From Acidiferrobacterales bacterium (GTDB taxonomy: Bacteria > Pseudomonadota > Gammaproteobacteria > Arenicellales > Poriferihabitantaceae): a DNA stretch of 64,000 nucleotides. The stretch is taken from the NCBI GenBank assembly GCA_019633985.1, contig JAHQWE010000001.1, forward strand, positions 1 through 64,000, read 5' to 3'. This document shows, one piece after another, positions 1 through 53,253 of this stretch (the stretch's first letter is position 1; the number at the start of each line of letters is the position of its first letter). The position numbers and the translations under genes are program-made. Below the pieces are notes generated by a model. It saw nothing but the letters and a program-made list of their open reading frames with translations. It did no database searches and was not told where the DNA came from.

Positions 1-993
1 AGTGATGGCACGCCGGACTTCCAGGATACGGATGCGGACAACGACGGTATTCCGGATAGCACTGAAGGTGATAGTACGGGTGGTCCGGATACGGACAGTG
101 ACGGCACGCCGGACTTCCGTGAGACCGATAGCGACAATGACGGCATTCCAGACAGTACCGAAGGAGATTCCTCTGGTGGTCCAGATAGTGATAGTGATGG
201 TACGCCGGACTTTCAGGATACGGATGCAGACAATGACGGTATTCCAGACTCCACTGAAGGCGATAGCACCGGTGGTCCGGATAGCGATAGTGATGGCACC
301 CCCGACTTCCAGGATACGGATGCCGATAATGACGGTATTCCAGACTCCACTGAAAGTGATTCAACGGGAGGCCCTGATACCGATAGCGATGGCACACCTG
401 ATTATCAGGACACCGACACCGATAATGATGGAATACCAGATTCCGTAGAGGGAGATAGCACGGGTGGACCTGATACGGACAGTGATGGCACACCAGATTT
501 CCGTGAGACAGATAGTGACAACGACGGTATCCCGGACAGCACGGAGGGCGATAGCACAGGTGGCCCTGATACCGACAGTGATGGAACCCCTGACTTCCAA
601 GATACGGATGCGGATAACGATGGTATTCCAGACAGTCAAGAAGGTGACAGCACTGGAGGTCCAGATACCGATAGTGATGGCACACCAGATTTCCAAGATA
701 CAGACACGGATAACGACGGCATTCCAGATTCCACTGAAGGTGATAGCACCGGTGGCCCGGATACAGACAGTGATGGGACACCTGATTATCAGGACACTGA
801 CACAGATAATGATGGCATTCCGGATAGCACAGAGGGAGACAGCTCTGGAGGTCCGGATACCGATAGTGACGGCACGCCAGATTTCCGTGATACCGATACA
901 GATAATGATGGTTTGCCAGATTCTGACGAAGGTGATTCAACAGGTGGTCCAGATACAGACAGTGATGGCACACCAGATTTCAGAGATACTGTA
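1..993 (+). repeat. Tandem 96-bp repeats encoding TSP3-like calcium loops
   Basis: Copies begin with AG(T/C)GA(T/C)GG at 1, 97, 193, 289, 385, 481, 577, 673, 769 and 865, so the period is exactly 96 bp (32 codons). An eleventh partial copy starts at 961 and decays after about 35 bp. Most differences between copies are synonymous or fall at a few variable residues: Q/R after PDF or PDY, then A/S/T in DTD-x-DNDG, and T/V/Q/D before EG. Confidence 0.95.
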
Positions 994-2578: not shown

Positions 2579-4084
2579 ATGGCAGAGCAACAAAATGCTA
2601 TCGGTAAAGGAAGGCAGTTACTAGTTAGTCTTGGACTAGCTTCTTCCATATTTGTTACCGGTTGCGCAATTAACCCCAAAGTTGTTACAGACGATGATGT
2701 TTTGGGTCGTATTGCGGAAGACAAAAGCAACTTGTTCGCTGGGCAAGAGCCGATATCTGGACCGATAGGCATGGGAGAGGCGCTTGTTCGCGCTATTCAA
2801 TATAACTTGGACAGTCGGGTAAAGAGAATGGAATTGGCTGTTGCCTCTCGAGACTTGGATTTCAGTGAGTTTGGTATGCTGCCCGATTTGGTAGCTAGTG
2901 CTGGTTATAACAAGCGATCGAATGATCCTGGTGCCCGTAGCATCAATACTGAGACCGGTGAGGAAAGTCTGCCACCTTCGCGTTCTCAGGAGAGAGTCAG
3001 GGAAACTCGTGATCTTGAGTTTATGTGGAATATTCTTGATTTCGGAATTAGTTATCACACTGCTCACCAGAAAGCACATGAAGTTTCAATCGCCAAACAA
3101 AGACAAAGAAAGACGATCCAGAATATTGCGCAAGACGTAGTTGATGCATTTTGGAAGGCCTGGGTAGCGCAAGAGATGGAAGCTGACATGGAGCAGCTTC
3201 TGACGACTACCGAAGACGCCATTGCGCAATCGGCAACATTGGTGTCTCAACAGTCACAAAGTAAGAAAGAAGCACTGCGGTATCAAACTAGTCTTTTGAG
3301 TATCCGAAACTCTTTGTATGAAATGCAAGAGCGAATGGGGTTGGCCAAGATTCGACTGGCGGCGTTGATTAATATTGCTCCTGATTCACAATACACACTG
3401 AAAAACCCCAGTGCAAATTTAGAACCTGGTCAGATAACCCGTGATTTCGCTTCGTTAGCTGACAACGCTTTAACCATGCGACCTGAATTACGTGAGGAAG
3501 ATTATCGAAAGCGAATTTCTCAGCGTGAAATCAAAAAGTCGATATTGCGATTGTTTCCTTCTATTCGTATTGGAACAGGCTATCACGCAGATGAAAACGA
3601 ATTTCTTATCAATGACGACTGGACCGATGTATCGTACGATATTTCATGGAACATTCTCGGCCTGTTTGGCATAAACGCCGAGCGCAAGTTTCGTGAAGCC
3701 CAAGTCGATCTTGCGGATGCACGACGGCTGGCTCTATCGATGGCGGTAATGACACAGGTTAAACTGTCGATGGAGCGTTACAAGCTCGCGCTGTTGCGCT
3801 ACCAATCTTCTCAGCAACTGACAGAGGCGACAACCGATTATGCAGCAGTAATAGATGGAGCTGGTAACGAAAGTGAACTTGACAAAATCAAGGCACGAAG
3901 TGATGCGCTTGTGTCTCAGCTGCGAACCAATTTCTCGTATGCTGAGGCACAATCCTCATTTGCACGTGTTGTCAACTCTATTGGAATTGACCTTGTGCCT
4001 GATTCTTTTCAGGCGGCAGATGCAGCGGGTCGAGGAATTGAAATGGAAAAACATTGGTCAGGCATAAAAGACAGTATGATGTGA
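2579..4084 (+). CDS. TolC-family outer membrane efflux lipoprotein
   Basis: A protein of 501 residues with a lipoprotein signal peptide (lipobox VTGC, Cys29 from the chosen start), followed by the long helical segments and duplicated architecture of outer membrane factors. TolC-like proteins form trimeric channels across the outer membrane and periplasm. An upstream in-frame GTG at 2498 would overlap the adhesin gene, but the ATG at 2579 has a GAGG at good spacing and puts the lipobox close to the N-terminus. It sits between the giant repeat protein and two HlyD-type adaptors, so it is probably the outer membrane exit channel for that protein. It could instead serve an efflux pump. Family assignment is firm; substrate is inferred. 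Confidence 0.85.
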   Translation: MAEQQNAIGKGRQLLVSLGLASSIFVTGCAINPKVVTDDDVLGRIAEDKSNLFAGQEPISGPIGMGEALVRAIQYNLDSRVKRMELAVASRDLDFSEFGMLPDLVASAGYNKRSNDPGARSINTETGEESLPPSRSQERVRETRDLEFMWNILDFGISYHTAHQKAHEVSIAKQRQRKTIQNIAQDVVDAFWKAWVAQEMEADMEQLLTTTEDAIAQSATLVSQQSQSKKEALRYQTSLLSIRNSLYEMQERMGLAKIRLAALINIAPDSQYTLKNPSANLEPGQITRDFASLADNALTMRPELREEDYRKRISQREIKKSILRLFPSIRIGTGYHADENEFLINDDWTDVSYDISWNILGLFGINAERKFREAQVDLADARRLALSMAVMTQVKLSMERYKLALLRYQSSQQLTEATTDYAAVIDGAGNESELDKIKARSDALVSQLRTNFSYAEAQSSFARVVNSIGIDLVPDSFQAADAAGRGIEMEKHWSGIKDSMM

Positions 4085-4103
4085 TCATCTGAGTTGACTG
4101 AGA

Positions 4104-4134
4104 AACCCGGCCGATGCCGGGTTTTTTGTTTTTG
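4104..4134 (+). terminator. Rho-independent terminator after the TolC-like gene
   Basis: The stem AACCCGGC / GCCGGGTT with loop CGAT is followed by TTTTTTGTTTTT. It separates the adhesin/TolC genes from the adaptor pair, so the adaptors probably have their own promoter in 4135-4290 or depend on read-through. Confidence 0.85.
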
Positions 4135-4294
4135 GAAGTCGGATTTCATCGTAGGTTCAATGTTTTGGCAATAGAATGTCCTATAATCCGAACTAGTCGA
4201 AATACTGACCCTTAAATCTCGAACCTGTTCTCATTGAACCCAAAGATGAGGCGGACTATTCTTTATCGGAGATGATGGGTAACGGGAGCAATTG

Positions 4295-5155
4295 ATGCAC
4301 AAAACTACATTTATCAAGCGCTGGATATTCTCTGGTGTTGTGGTGTTGTCTTTTCAAGGGATCGCATACGCGCAATCGACATTGGACAAACAGATCGAAG
4401 AACTGGGTTTGAATATCCAGCAGCCCGAAATTTCGGTAGAGGGTGGAGCTACAAAGTTGTCTACTGAAAGTAGTGGATCTGCGGCTGTGAATTCCGTCAG
4501 CAACGAAATAAGAGTACTGTTGAAACCACAAAGGACGACGTTGTTATCCGCTGAGGCGACAGGCCAAATAAAGTCATTCCCTAACGATATTGGCGATCGA
4601 TTCAAGAAGGGCGCTGCCCTTGTCAAAATAGGCTGCAGTGATACTTACTCAGAAATAGCCATTGCGAAGTCTCGGGTAGCGCAAAGTCGACTTGAATATG
4701 AATCGAATAAAAGCTTGCTGGCACAAGGTGGTGTGAGTAAATTTGATCTAGATATTTCTGGCGCGGGTGTTGAAGAAAGAGAAGCTATATTAAAAAAGTA
4801 CCAAGGATTGGCATCGGGTTGTGTTTTAACTGCTCCCTACAGCGGAAAAGTGGTAGCGACACTGGCGAGCCGATATGAATACGTCAACAAAGGAACGCCT
4901 GTAGTCGAAATAATCGAGGATTCCGTTCTTGATATGCAGCTGTACGTGCCTTCTACCTGGGTCACCAAACTAAGCACTAAAACCGAGTTCACGGTATATA
5001 TCGATGAGGTGAAAAAATCTTATCCAGCGAGAGTAATACGCGTCAATCCAAGGGTTGACGCTGGAAGTAAAACTGTCGAAATTATCGCCCAACTCACCGA
5101 ACAGCATAAAGAGTTGCGTGCCGGAATGAGTGGGAGCGCGAAGTTTAACTTCTAA
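4295..5155 (+). CDS. HlyD/RND-type periplasmic adaptor protein
   Basis: A 286-residue exported protein. The signal peptide is cleavable (hydrophobic core GVVVLSF, site after AYA at residue 26). A lipoyl-like half motif near residues 80-110 (TGQIKSFPNDIGDRFKKGAALVKI) and its partner (TAPYSGKVVATLASRYEYV) flank a short coiled coil rich in Ala, Glu and Lys, and beta-barrel sequence follows. Such adaptors bridge an inner membrane transporter and a TolC channel. The ATG at 4295 is preceded by GGGAG at proper spacing; a TTG codon lies directly before it. The next gene starts 6 nt after its stop, so the two adaptors are almost certainly co-transcribed. Confidence 0.85.
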   Translation: MHKTTFIKRWIFSGVVVLSFQGIAYAQSTLDKQIEELGLNIQQPEISVEGGATKLSTESSGSAAVNSVSNEIRVLLKPQRTTLLSAEATGQIKSFPNDIGDRFKKGAALVKIGCSDTYSEIAIAKSRVAQSRLEYESNKSLLAQGGVSKFDLDISGAGVEEREAILKKYQGLASGCVLTAPYSGKVVATLASRYEYVNKGTPVVEIIEDSVLDMQLYVPSTWVTKLSTKTEFTVYIDEVKKSYPARVIRVNPRVDAGSKTVEIIAQLTEQHKELRAGMSGSAKFNF

Positions 5156-8614: not shown

Positions 8615-9925
8615 TTATGCGACTGGATGCCACTCTCCATCAGTACCAAAATACTCTTTGCCCTCATCCCGGTAAAAACTAGTGCTATCGCTTTGTTTCA
8701 GTAGGTTGAGCATTCTGGGTATTGGTAAACCTTTTGATGCAATAGTTTCCATGACCCGATCAGCGCCGATTTGATCAATTAGCTCAAAAGGGCCTTTTTT
8801 CCACCCAAAACCCCAGCGCATTGCACGGTCTACGTTCACTATATCATCGGCAATTTCTGGAACCAGTTCCGCACTGTAACTGAGAGTCATGGTCATGATG
8901 TCTGTCACGAATCGAGCATTCGCACTCTCACCTCCATAGAGGCTTTCCAGTGATGAATCCTTTTCGGAGAGCATTGGTTTTTCAGCTGCTCTCCACTGAT
9001 CATTTTGTAAATCAAACACCTCCATTGTTTTACTTCCGTCATCATGTCTAGTGAGTTTATAAAAACCACCGCCAGTTTTGCGTCCGAGCTGGCCGCGATC
9101 AAAAATAGTTTGTACGCTCTTTGTAAAGTTTGTGTAAGCGCGCCCAGCATCATTATCAGGAAGATTGGTCTCCAGATTTTTACCAACATTGAACATGACA
9201 TCCAGACCGATTAAGTCGACGAGTCCATACAGCCCGGTTGCAGGTAGTCCCACCGGCTCCGACATCAGCGCATCAATGGACTCTATTGTCAGATCATCTT
9301 TCGCCATTGACTCCTCTGCAATATGCAGCCCAGAAAGCATCCACATACAGCCAATTCGATTGCCAATAAAATTGACAGTGTCCTTGGCATACACCACGCC
9401 CTTGTTCAGCGTTTGACCCAGAAAATCCGCCAAGGTGGATATGACCTCTGGGCGCGTTTTCTCACCCGGCACTAGTTCCACCAGTTTCATAATGTGAACC
9501 GGATTAAAAAAGTGGGTGACCGCAATGTCCTGTTGGAGCCGTTCAGGCATACCCTGATAGATGTCACGCAAAGGAATTCCAGATGTATTCGTGGAGATGA
9601 TAGAGCCTTCGCCGCGGACAGCTTCAACTTTCTTGAAGAGTTCTCTTTTGATTTCGACGTTTTCGACAACGACTTCACAAATCCAGTCACAGTCTTTTAT
9701 TTTCTGAAGATCGGCGTCAAACGAGCCAGTGGAAATACGTTCTAAAACGGTCTCGTCGCTGATCACGGGGGAGCGGCCGGCGACAAGTTTTTCTTTGGCT
9801 TTCTCGCTAGCTGATTTTTCCAGATCCAGCAGCAATACTTGGCAACCCGCGTTTGCACATACGCCGGCGATACCAAACCCCATTGTGCCGGCTCCCAGCA
9901 CGGCTACTTTTTTGATTTCAGTCAT
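8615..9925 (-). CDS. 3-hydroxyacyl-CoA dehydrogenase
   Basis: A protein of 436 residues. The Rossmann motif GAGTMGFGIAG at residues 11-21 binds NAD. The family segment STNTSGIP ... HFFNPVHIMKLVELV contains the catalytic His. Two C-terminal dehydrogenase domains follow. It would oxidise a 3-hydroxyacyl-CoA to the 3-ketoacyl-CoA. There is no enoyl-CoA hydratase domain, so it is a stand-alone enzyme of the Hbd/PaaH type rather than FadB. The next gene upstream on the same strand is an acyl-CoA ligase, 235 nt away, so the two may share a degradation pathway. Whether that is fatty acid, aromatic or DMSP-derived acyl-CoA degradation cannot be told. Confidence 0.88.
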   Translation of the reverse strand: MTEIKKVAVLGAGTMGFGIAGVCANAGCQVLLLDLEKSASEKAKEKLVAGRSPVISDETVLERISTGSFDADLQKIKDCDWICEVVVENVEIKRELFKKVEAVRGEGSIISTNTSGIPLRDIYQGMPERLQQDIAVTHFFNPVHIMKLVELVPGEKTRPEVISTLADFLGQTLNKGVVYAKDTVNFIGNRIGCMWMLSGLHIAEESMAKDDLTIESIDALMSEPVGLPATGLYGLVDLIGLDVMFNVGKNLETNLPDNDAGRAYTNFTKSVQTIFDRGQLGRKTGGGFYKLTRHDDGSKTMEVFDLQNDQWRAAEKPMLSEKDSSLESLYGGESANARFVTDIMTMTLSYSAELVPEIADDIVNVDRAMRWGFGWKKGPFELIDQIGADRVMETIASKGLPIPRMLNLLKQSDSTSFYRDEGKEYFGTDGEWHPVA

Positions 9926-50576: not shown

Positions 50577-50972
50577 TTACGTGTCTTTGTCAATTCGATA
50601 GGGTAAAAAGTAATCGCCGGACGCGCGTTTGAACCGTATTTGGTCGCCGCCGTATTCTATCTGTAAACATTCATCTGGCCGTGGCTGGTTGCCAATTCTA
50701 ATACTGCGGCAGAACATCCCCTCGATCCAATCCCATTCTCCTTCAACCTTACCGCCGGGAAACGCCCCGATTATTGTCCCATCAGAATTAAACCGAACGT
50801 TGTATCCACCTGGCCAACTCAGAGGCTTATCAACTACTTTGTCCAAAAATAATTCTCTGCTTATGATCGGTTGGTAGCTTATTGACTGGCACGCCTGTAG
50901 CGACAAAAGAAGCACCAATGCGAGTAGACGATCTAGGCGGATCAGGAGAATGCTAAGTCGACAAGTATTCAT
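50577..50972 (-). CDS. Hypothetical lipoprotein in the PqqD/HprK operon
   Basis: A protein of 131 residues with a lipobox (LSLQAC, Cys near 28), followed by a small domain probably of beta strands with a WDWIEGMFCRSIRIG core and two later Cys (FCRS and DECLQ). I do not recognise a named family. It overlaps the nucleotidyltransferase gene by 4 nt (ATGA), so it belongs to that operon. Export to the periplasm may make it the partner or target of the cytoplasmic genes, which is speculation. Confidence 0.7.
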   Translation of the reverse strand: MNTCRLSILLIRLDRLLALVLLLSLQACQSISYQPIISRELFLDKVVDKPLSWPGGYNVRFNSDGTIIGAFPGGKVEGEWDWIEGMFCRSIRIGNQPRPDECLQIEYGGDQIRFKRASGDYFLPYRIDKDT

Positions 50973-52099
50973 TTGGGTGGCCAGTATCGGACAATTACTC
51001 TACGTAGTAACCAAATAAAAACCTGTAACGGGTGTCTAAAGTATCGAGTAAATAATAGTGTCTTTCCTGGCGGCACCATATAAAAGCAGTGCAGCCACCA
51101 GTCGGGTGCATCGATAAGTGACCGTAGCCTCAAGAATATTCTATGTTCGTTTGAGAGTTTCCTCTCTGATAATGGCACTAATCCCTTTCCCACCGCGGAT
51201 GGTTGCTTCGCGACTGGTGGTTTTATCCAGCTTGTAATGATTTCTGGTAGTGGCGATAGATAGTGGAAATGGGCGATGGTATTGGTGACAAAAGGGTACT
51301 TCTTGTGAGTGATTTCAGCATCAATTTTGTCAATGTGTTGCACAACATATCCATAAATATCGGCAACAGCGATGAGCTTGATATCGATCACTGGCTCCAG
51401 AGTGTGGTGACATAAATGTCGCAACGTGTCGATATGACCTAGACGATAGGCAAGCTGGTTCTCGATGTAAAATGCAATAGGGGAGCTGGTCAGATTATTG
51501 AACTGGATAGAACCAGGAGCATCCCGTGATAAGGCATCTGTATGAATTTCAACATGGATTGAGACGCCATTCACCGTGTTTGACGCCATTGGAAGGTGGT
51601 GGTGATCACCCAGGTATGGATTTTTATTCTCGTGAATTTTATATCCTAGTTCTCTCAAACATTGTTGTGCCAATTCAGCCTTGGCAGGGGGAACTAGTAT
51701 GTCTAAATCGCTCATTGGCCTTAGCGAAATGTTCGCATACAGCGCATGCATCAATGCTGCCCCCTTCAACAAGATGGCATCTATTTGACGGGCCGAGAAA
51801 AATGACAATATTTCTTTTAGCGCCAGAGTACGCGCCGCATTAGACGTTTGATGGCGGAGTTTTAAAGCAATGAATTGATGTCTGATAGGTTGTGATAAGG
51901 GCAGCTCTAGTTCAAGTAAATGCTGGTATACCAAAGGAGCCATACCATGTTGTTCCGCTAATGCGATCAACTTTTCCTGATCCACCATCTGAAGCCAAAG
52001 CGCTTCAATCTCCGTTTTGACTTGGCTGAGTTCGCTGACCAAGAATCTGGGTCGGCATAAGCGGCGGAGAAGCTGCGTTTCTCTGGTTACCATTCGCAA
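50969..52099 (-). CDS. Nucleotidyltransferase-like protein (PF14907 type)
   Basis: A protein of 376 residues. The core LLKGAALMHALY ... LRPMSDLDILVPP is the nucleotidyltransferase fold with its DxD metal motif (DLDIL), and the region before it is a helical domain. A C-terminal part with aromatic and basic residues may be membrane-associated. Homologues occur next to HprK-like kinases in peptide-modification clusters, such as some lasso peptide clusters. Substrate is unknown. Its start overlaps the HprK-like gene by 13 nt. Confidence 0.75.
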   Translation of the reverse strand: MRMVTRETQLLRRLCRPRFLVSELSQVKTEIEALWLQMVDQEKLIALAEQHGMAPLVYQHLLELELPLSQPIRHQFIALKLRHQTSNAARTLALKEILSFFSARQIDAILLKGAALMHALYANISLRPMSDLDILVPPAKAELAQQCLRELGYKIHENKNPYLGDHHHLPMASNTVNGVSIHVEIHTDALSRDAPGSIQFNNLTSSPIAFYIENQLAYRLGHIDTLRHLCHHTLEPVIDIKLIAVADIYGYVVQHIDKIDAEITHKKYPFVTNTIAHFHYLSPLPEIITSWIKPPVAKQPSAVGKGLVPLSERKLSNEHRIFLRLRSLIDAPDWWLHCFYMVPPGKTLLFTRYFRHPLQVFIWLLRRVIVRYWPPK

Positions 52100-52980
52100 A
52101 AAATTTCCGAAAAAAGCGGCGCTAGATCTTTAAAGTGACTATATCTCAGAGAATATGCAGGTGTTTTCTTGACCAAGTTGGCAACGTCGCGAAATCCATG
52201 ACCAGGTAGGTTTCTCGCTATGACGTTTGAGCGCATCAACTCCAACCCCGCTGCCGCCGCTGATAGCCGTGATAGATGCGGAGGTTCAGCTGTCGAATAT
52301 TTAGGAAATATGATCGTTCCAATAGGCGGAATAGATTGCTGTTCTTCCACCGGTTTATTGCGGGAGAATATGGAGGGAAGAATCATGGAGATTCCCGCTG
52401 CCTGCCGTGCGACCCTTCTGGAATCAGCGCTGACGATCTGGTTGTCCACAAGTTCTTGTATTGCGATCAGTCCCTTAGCTTTAACATTTAAAGGACGGGA
52501 AAAGGCGTGATGGTCACCGTGCTGGAGATCGATAAGCACGAGTTCATCCGTGTGGTAACACCATCCCATTGAAGTTAGCCACGCGGTAACTGACGTTTTT
52601 CCGCTGCCACTCTCAGCGGGAATCAGCAGACTTTTGCCCCTCCGGGAGACTAATCCCGCATGAATTGCCAGATGGCCTTCGTTTTGTTCGATCAAACGAA
52701 ATAAAACATCGCCAGATAAAAAGCTACCTAGTGTGTTGATGTGATCAAAAGTCTGTTTAGACATTCCCTCTCCGAAGAGGCACCAACTGTTTTCTTCTGA
52801 TCGTATGCGATAGCGTGCACAAAGTTGATTGTCTCCTACATCTGGAACAACCATTTTGGAAAAAAGAAAGGTCAGTAGACTCTCCAACTCAGCTCCCTCG
52901 TAGTCAAATTGGCAAACCTGACCACCAAAGGCGACGAAGAGCTGATCTATCATCAACGGCGATTCACTAGATAAAGACAC
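52087..52980 (-). CDS. HprK-like P-loop kinase
   Basis: A protein of 297 residues with a Walker A motif PAESGSGKTS at residues 121-130 preceded by HAGLVSRRG, the arrangement of HPr serine kinase/phosphorylase C-terminal domains. No HPr-type protein is nearby, and the N-terminal half is not like HprK of phosphotransferase systems. In related systems such kinases phosphorylate a peptide or protein. It lies 3 nt after the PqqD-like gene. Confidence 0.8.
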   Translation of the reverse strand: MSLSSESPLMIDQLFVAFGGQVCQFDYEGAELESLLTFLFSKMVVPDVGDNQLCARYRIRSEENSWCLFGEGMSKQTFDHINTLGSFLSGDVLFRLIEQNEGHLAIHAGLVSRRGKSLLIPAESGSGKTSVTAWLTSMGWCYHTDELVLIDLQHGDHHAFSRPLNVKAKGLIAIQELVDNQIVSADSRRVARQAAGISMILPSIFSRNKPVEEQQSIPPIGTIIFPKYSTAEPPHLSRLSAAAAGLELMRSNVIARNLPGHGFRDVANLVKKTPAYSLRYSHFKDLAPLFSEIFCEW

Positions 52981-52983
52981 ATG

Positions 52984-53253
52984 CTACGCATTGATGGAAA
53001 TCGCACCATCAGAAGACAGCTGGTTCAGACAGTTTGCAACATCTTGGTGCATATTCTCAATATCGGGAAAGGCTTCAGAGAGAATTTCAATGATATCTGT
53101 CATCGTCCTGTCACCATCGCATAGCTGCCAGATGATGGCGGCACTTTGATTCAAGTAGATTGTTCGAGTGTTTGCGGTTGAATAGAGCAATATTTCGCCG
53201 TCCATTTCTTCCAATGAAAATTCCGCGTTTGGAATAGGAGTCGGGTTAGTCAT
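52984..53253 (-). CDS. PqqD-like peptide chaperone
   Basis: A protein of 89 residues with the PqqD winged-helix pattern: DGEILLYSTANTRTIYLNQS, AAIIWQLCDGDRTMTDII, and a C-terminal helix (DVANCLNQLSSDGAI). PqqD domains bind the leader of a ribosomal peptide and hand it to a modifying enzyme. It is the first gene of a four-gene minus-strand operon with an HprK-like kinase, a nucleotidyltransferase and a lipoprotein. No precursor peptide gene is obvious in the 132 nt before it. Confidence 0.8.
   Translation of the reverse strand: MTNPTPIPNAEFSLEEMDGEILLYSTANTRTIYLNQSAAIIWQLCDGDRTMTDIIEILSEAFPDIENMHQDVANCLNQLSSDGAISINA

Follow-up and report, generated by a model that had tools for sequence, protein, structure and literature searches.

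A three-enzyme cassette with a PqqD-like protein, an HprK-like kinase and a nucleotidyltransferase, and a family of Tat-type leader proteins as its candidate substrates

The operon and its conserved core

The window, as we call the whole stretch of 64,000 nucleotides analysed here (Acidiferrobacterales bacterium, assembly GCA_019633985.1), carries between positions 50577 and 53253 of its minus strand four ORFs that were all confirmed at this place. They are as tightly packed as the earlier note, made from the letters alone, had described: a 3-nt gap separates the PqqD-like gene from the kinase gene, which overlaps the nucleotidyltransferase gene by 13 nt, and the latter shares 4 nt with a gene for a small lipoprotein. 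The first ORF (52984..53253, minus strand) encodes an 89-aa PqqD-like protein that scores 48.5 bits against PF05402 (PqqD; cut-off 23.4) and aligns with solved RREs, 9x8z and 5v1u among others. Its most likely role, judged from sequence, is that of a stand-alone RRE reading and presenting a leader, as had been proposed. Asn35 (codon at 53149..53151, minus strand) and Asp71 (53041..53043, minus strand) are invariant in an alignment of 25 relatives. The alignments equate them with Asn33 and Asp70 of LppB, which contact the leader Pro and Tyr, respectively, Asn33 holding the kink at the proline and Asp70 forming a hydrogen bond with the aromatic residue in YxxP (PMC13381572).

The second ORF (52087..52980, minus strand) codes for a 297-aa kinase, conserved in 30 relatives, which is related to HprK but gives only 90.5 bits with TIGR04352, below the cut-off of 200. 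Its AlphaFold2 model (pLDDT 92) has the HprK/PEP-carboxykinase fold, PEP carboxykinase being the nearest solved fold. The P-loop PAESGSGKT (52594..52620, minus strand) is intact, and its residues P121, S124, G125, G127 and K128 are invariant in a 20-sequence alignment. The third ORF (50969..52099, minus strand) encodes a 376-aa protein of the NTP_transf_5 family (PF14907, 131.4 bits, cut-off 31.2); in lasso and LPP clusters the kinase is paired with a protein of the same type at the Pfam level. Its AlphaFold model (pLDDT 93) is closest to the solved folds of ANT(2'') and MenT3, members of the nucleotidyltransferase superfamily. The conserved catalytic segment KG..L...LRPMSDLDIL (51695..51766, minus strand) displays K112, G113, L116, R127, D131, D133 and L135, all invariant in 31 relatives. 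Both enzymes have kept intact, conserved catalytic signatures. The fourth ORF (50577..50972, minus strand), which overlaps the last enzyme gene of the operon, encodes the 131-aa lipoprotein, a protein with no match in Pfam or NCBIfam.

About 30 relatives, and members of other phyla, also have the PqqD-like, kinase and NTP_transf_5 genes together, and this recurrence shows that their grouping is not due to chance. In two congeners (G002 and G003, loci L032 and L033) the three genes occupy the corresponding site, flanked by yjbQ and relA, and no lipoprotein gene accompanies them. Elsewhere in Arenicellales the cassette occupies other sites and its gene order is altered. No homologue of the lipoprotein is present in any relative locus examined. 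The conserved cassette is composed of the three enzyme genes, without the lipoprotein, which is found only in the operon of the window and is probably incidental to it. The operon has neither the cyclase nor the protease of lasso clusters, in agreement with the first reading of this DNA.

A leader family linked to the cassette

When related loci were sought, a single kinase sequence retrieved none and an alignment of kinases succeeded. In several cassette loci of relatives the neighbouring genes encode proteins with the Tat-like amino terminus RRxLLK...P..WxKPVVxSVxLPAHAQT[S/T]. A loose regular expression for this leader gave many chance matches and was replaced by profiles, A1 built from four cassette-neighbour sequences and A2 from 43 sequences. 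Profile A1 identifies three leader proteins in the window's own genome, encoded on contigs C69, C71 and C108, and none within the window. The earlier note had seen no precursor here and had allowed for a target elsewhere; both points are borne out by this distribution. Profile searches detect up to 20 leader proteins per genome in relatives. Repeated small ORFs following the kinase gene at locus L054 (73, 55 and 55 aa) were also considered as precursors and were rejected, having no leader features.

The conserved positions emerge from a comparison of 143 distinct leader proteins in which the His of AHA is the reference point. Trp is found at -13 in 142 of them, and Pro at -10 and -2, together with the His-Ala pair, in all 143, keeping in mind that the P.HA element is the anchor, that its columns are thus biased and that one sequence having HG was excluded. 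Ser or Thr is present at +4, three residues after AHA, in 142/143 proteins, with Thr in about a third. In distant taxa core position 3 is Ser or Thr in 32/33 sequences while position 2 varies (Thr, Ala, Leu, Val). The profile prefers Thr at position 2 and this position nevertheless varies, which speaks for a hydroxyl at position 3 that is constrained and not an artefact of the search. Pfam and NCBIfam have no model covering the leader apart from generic TAT signals, whose two models give weak matches to 17/43 and 9/43 leaders, and a literature search gave no paper on the PAHAQ motif. The leader RR...WxKP...LPAHA-x-x-[S/T] is an N-terminal signal not listed before. Across 97 leader proteins the two columns of the twin Arg hardly vary (90% or more), and TatC is encoded in the window's genome, suggesting that the leader is a Tat-type signal.

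The sequence that follows AHA is diverse, with a median of 130 residues. A few proteins have fasciclin, glycine-rich, endosialidase-chaperone or cadherin/Ig-like domains and most have no domain match. About 15 of the 143 display, downstream of the first AHA, a second element resembling LLDxLVPxAHA, sometimes twice (for instance L085:967-1683, L047:7209-8345, L059:2022-3569 and L110:5116-5790), which is perhaps a second processing site. Tandem leader genes coding for short proteins with Thr-rich, mucin-like tails lie beside the cassette at L132:3488-4323, L193:1282-2646 and L181:4873-5691.

Outside Arenicellales, cassettes are found in Desulfobulbaceae, Anaerolineae, Lentisphaerae/Verrucomicrobia, Acidobacteria and Bradyrhizobium. 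A leader gene lies within 306 bp of 24 of these 40 distant cassettes, most often within 150 bp. The other 16 have none in the fetched flank, which is short in some cases; the genome of L150 carries leaders elsewhere. Whole-genome searches of 16 distant hosts gave 1-5 leader proteins each, so this adjacency cannot be attributed to chance. In Arenicellales, where leaders are dispersed, 5/31 loci have a leader within 5 kb against 0.29 expected when about five leaders per genome are assumed (p 1e-5).

Among 109 Arenicellales genomes, 39 have a leader according to profile A2 and 35 have an orthologous kinase (profile A3, E <= 1e-30). Leader and cassette are both present in 34 genomes, the cassette alone in 2, the leader alone in 5 and neither in 68 (Fisher 2e-20). 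G049 was counted as having both, its nucleotidyltransferase, PqqD and kinase start lying at a contig end where the cassette runs off. Because relatives are not independent, the comparison was repeated within genera, giving 24 joint occurrences against 20.2 expected (p 0.002). The co-occurrence is therefore partly phylogenetic, the within-genus test being much weaker than the raw one, and linkage is the stronger evidence for the tie between leader and cassette. Genus g1 is an illustration: G000, G002 and G003 have both while G001 and G004 have neither. The five genomes with leader proteins and no cassette are G010, where PqqD-containing proteins adjoin the leader gene, G058, G077 and G080, in which none was detected, and G094. 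The cassette is found without a detected leader in G074 and in the incomplete G096; the incompleteness of MAGs bears on both sides of this table.

The leader and its association with the cassette strongly support, at the level of sequence, the dispersed leader proteins as substrates of the three enzymes. The earlier note had taken the discovery of a lasso or other RiPP precursor linked in relatives as an argument against its own proposal. Precursors are indeed linked to cassettes in relatives, but they are protein-sized and bear the Tat-type leader rather than being lasso precursors.

A proposed route of modification and its alternatives

We privilege the hypothesis, with a probability of about 0.7, that the cassette modifies exported proteins under the guidance of their leader. 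The conserved three-enzyme cassette and its leader proteins give substance to the compact peptide or protein modification system first suggested for this operon. Its best reading is a Tat-coupled, RRE-guided phosphorylation and/or glycosylation of many dispersed substrates, the chemistry being deduced. The following route is consistent with what was computed here, namely which enzymes are grouped, the existence of a leader family, the way in which it is linked to the cassette and co-occurs with it, and the invariant residues. Scattered substrate genes would produce proteins whose Tat-type signal peptide has the motif W-x-K-P-x-[VIL] and ends in LPAHA. The PqqD-like RRE would bind the WxKP motif in the cytoplasm, and the HprK-like kinase would phosphorylate the Ser or Thr found three residues after AHA, past the cleavage site. 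A nucleotidyl or sugar group could then be put on that phosphate, either by the nucleotidyltransferase or by a glycosyltransferase that is fused or associated. Tat would export the modified protein, and a cut by signal peptidase I after AHA would leave a modified amino terminus. The comparison with LPP and pseudomycoidin and the enzyme fusions fit this sequence of events, in which leader binding, the identity of the phosphorylated residue, the second reaction, Tat export and cleavage are inferred from sequence relations.

Several of these fusions join cassette proteins to further enzymes. The kinase is fused to GT2 at L130, L132 and L179, and at L168 its frame is joined to a fucose pyrophosphorylase/GHMP kinase. 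A PqqD-polysaccharide pyruvyltransferase fusion of G049 (L263:543-2813, minus strand) abuts a leader gene at 1-538 (minus strand), and PqqD domains are fused to GT2 and LicD domains at L262:3848-5668 and L268:2637-3779, respectively. Other enzymes may thus read the same leader. At L052:10353-10850 (plus strand) of the congener G001, a single chain has a PqqD domain, a leader-like segment and a Cys-rich tail; it adjoins the gene of a divergent HprK-like kinase and is possibly reader and substrate in one.

In a wider reading, which we put forward only tentatively, the cassette serves general N-terminal tagging and sorting: the RRE would read WxKP in the Tat signals of many unrelated exported proteins, and the kinase together with the transferase would place close to the mature amino terminus a phospho-sugar tag that fixes the proteins to surface glycans. 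If true, such a system would be the counterpart, at the opposite end of the protein, of PEP-CTERM/exosortase. RRE-guided modification is known so far for small secreted peptides from dedicated clusters, whereas in the present case this set of enzymes seems to act, in several phyla, on many unrelated and mostly protein-sized exported substrates that have only the signal peptide in common. The analysis proposes a function and a substrate list for cassettes annotated piecemeal as PqqD family, HprK-related and uncharacterised nucleotidyltransferase proteins, and it describes a leader motif for which Pfam and NCBIfam have no entry, together with a predicted modified residue.

As an alternative, the cassette could serve to attach leader proteins to polysaccharide of the cell surface, the phosphate or sugar at the amino terminus being a linkage or anchor that achieves sorting and not tailoring. 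The fusions of the kinase to GT2 and to the fucose pyrophosphorylase/GHMP kinase, those of PqqD to pyruvyltransferase, GT2 and LicD, the fasciclin, cadherin/Ig-like or glycine-rich domains of some substrates and the position of LPP clusters in capsule loci (PMC13381572) are in its favour. However, the cassette of the window lies away from polysaccharide genes, no ligase or anchor gene is tied to it and the substrates have no common surface-attachment domain, which make this coupling doubtful.

Contig C9 of the window's own genome, G000 (locus L064), has a separate lasso-type cluster (2655-4493, minus; 4604-5071, minus; 8751-9683, plus) with genes for an asparagine synthase-like protein, a B2 protease, a divergent HprK-like kinase of its own and sulfotransferase- and oxygenase-like proteins. 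No precursor and no PqqD/B1 were seen on this 10-kb contig. The cassette could serve this cluster by supplying the missing PqqD/B1 and tailoring in trans, an idea that gains from the presence of asparagine synthase-like, B2 and oxygenase/sulfotransferase-like genes without PqqD, and from B2 genes tracking the cassette by lineage (29/36 cassette genomes, against 9/73 of those without cassette). The missing B1 means little, since the locus runs into the end of contig C9. Furthermore, the cluster has a kinase of its own and distant cassettes adjoin leader genes. Leaders are present in 7/7 cassette genomes devoid of B2 and in 3/9 B2 genomes devoid of cassette, so that leaders go with the cassette and not with B2. 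We consequently judged the C9 cluster unlikely to be the client.

It is very improbable that the kinase acts on HPr or regulates metabolism and is found by accident in the company of PqqD and the nucleotidyltransferase. Its predicted fold is HprK-like and relatives give weak HprK matches, but the kinase of the window is far under the cut-offs of HprK-related models and has no match at E <= 1 to TIGR00679, the HprK family model; the three-gene linkage maintained across phyla and the linkage to leader genes would stay unexplained. The other target envisaged by the earlier note, the small lipoprotein, has in its favour its position in the operon and the 4-nt overlap with the nucleotidyltransferase gene, but it is hardly credible as a substrate because it is not conserved with the cassette, having no homologue in any relative locus and being missing from the syntenic site of G002 and G003; it also has no WxKP leader.

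Comparison with known systems

The leader-guided machine proposed here shares components with several characterized or annotated systems. The PqqD of PQQ biosynthesis has the fold of the window protein, which gives 47.1 bits, below cut-offs, with NF002535; however, a PqqE-type enzyme is not part of the cassette, and the same genome has a separate PqqD on contig C23 within an apparent PQQ operon. HPr-rel-A (TIGR04352/TIGR04353), for which we found no paper with a description, likewise associates an HprK-related kinase with a PqqD relative, but neither window protein reaches the cut-offs (kinase 90.5 against 200 bits, PqqD 14.7 against 35 bits). A true HPr-rel-A PqqD, above the TIGR04353 cut-off, is found in G129 (L061:8651-10439) beside a protein with an RR-type leader of a different kind, SRRRLAKAG...RPV...C. 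This is a hint that proteins with RR leaders are targets of HPr-rel-A as well.

The paeninodin and pseudomycoidin systems (PadeK, PsmK, PsmN) have the kinase-nucleotidyltransferase pair and a PqqD-type B1, and Bacillota lasso leaders display a WxxP motif like the leader described here. In pseudomycoidin, PsmK phosphorylates a Ser and PsmN leads to a hexose on the phosphoserine (PMC9266682). The modified Ser of these peptides is carboxyl-terminal, whereas the conserved hydroxyl found here is near the mature amino terminus, and lasso clusters have a B2 protease and a macrolactam cyclase, which the window cassette does not.

LPP clusters, reported as Bacillota-restricted, encode in the genes LppA/B/K/N/S/D an RRE, an HprK-like kinase, an NTP transferase, an SpI-like peptidase and an exporter (Popov et al. 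2026, PMC13381572). They resemble the cassette in the clustering of a stand-alone RRE, an HprK-like kinase and an NTP transferase without macrolactam cyclase, and N33/D70 of LppB correspond to the invariant N35/D71. The RRE motif [Y/W]xxPx[LVI..], present in the LPP leader YxxPxVLxHQxIxFETxxS (PMC13381572), is matched by the present leader, the two having [Y/W]xxPx[V/L] in common, and the signal-peptidase-like cleavage of LPP has a predicted counterpart in the leader proteins. LppK phosphorylates core Ser3, with cleavage immediately upstream of the core (PMC13381572). The distance from the motif aromatic residue is 18 residues to this Ser in LPP and 17 to the conserved Ser/Thr here, which would also be core position 3 if cleavage follows AHA.

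There are also differences. LPP leaders have Y instead of W, and their HQxIxFET part is not present in the WxKPVVxSVxLPAHAQT[S/T] leader, which unlike them doubles as a putative Tat-type signal with an ordinary-looking AxA signal peptidase site. LPP clusters have a dedicated archaeal-type SpI peptidase and an MsbA-like exporter; inspection of the ORFs that adjoin the cassette of the window showed neither. LPP clusters have 1-3 precursors each, while the substrates proposed here are scattered and mostly protein-sized. The S3T variant of LPP is not phosphorylated (PMC13381572), whereas about a third of the leader proteins have Thr at the equivalent position. The best reading of these sequence comparisons is that LPP/paeninodin is the nearest known kind and that the present system would be a variant of it outside Bacillota.
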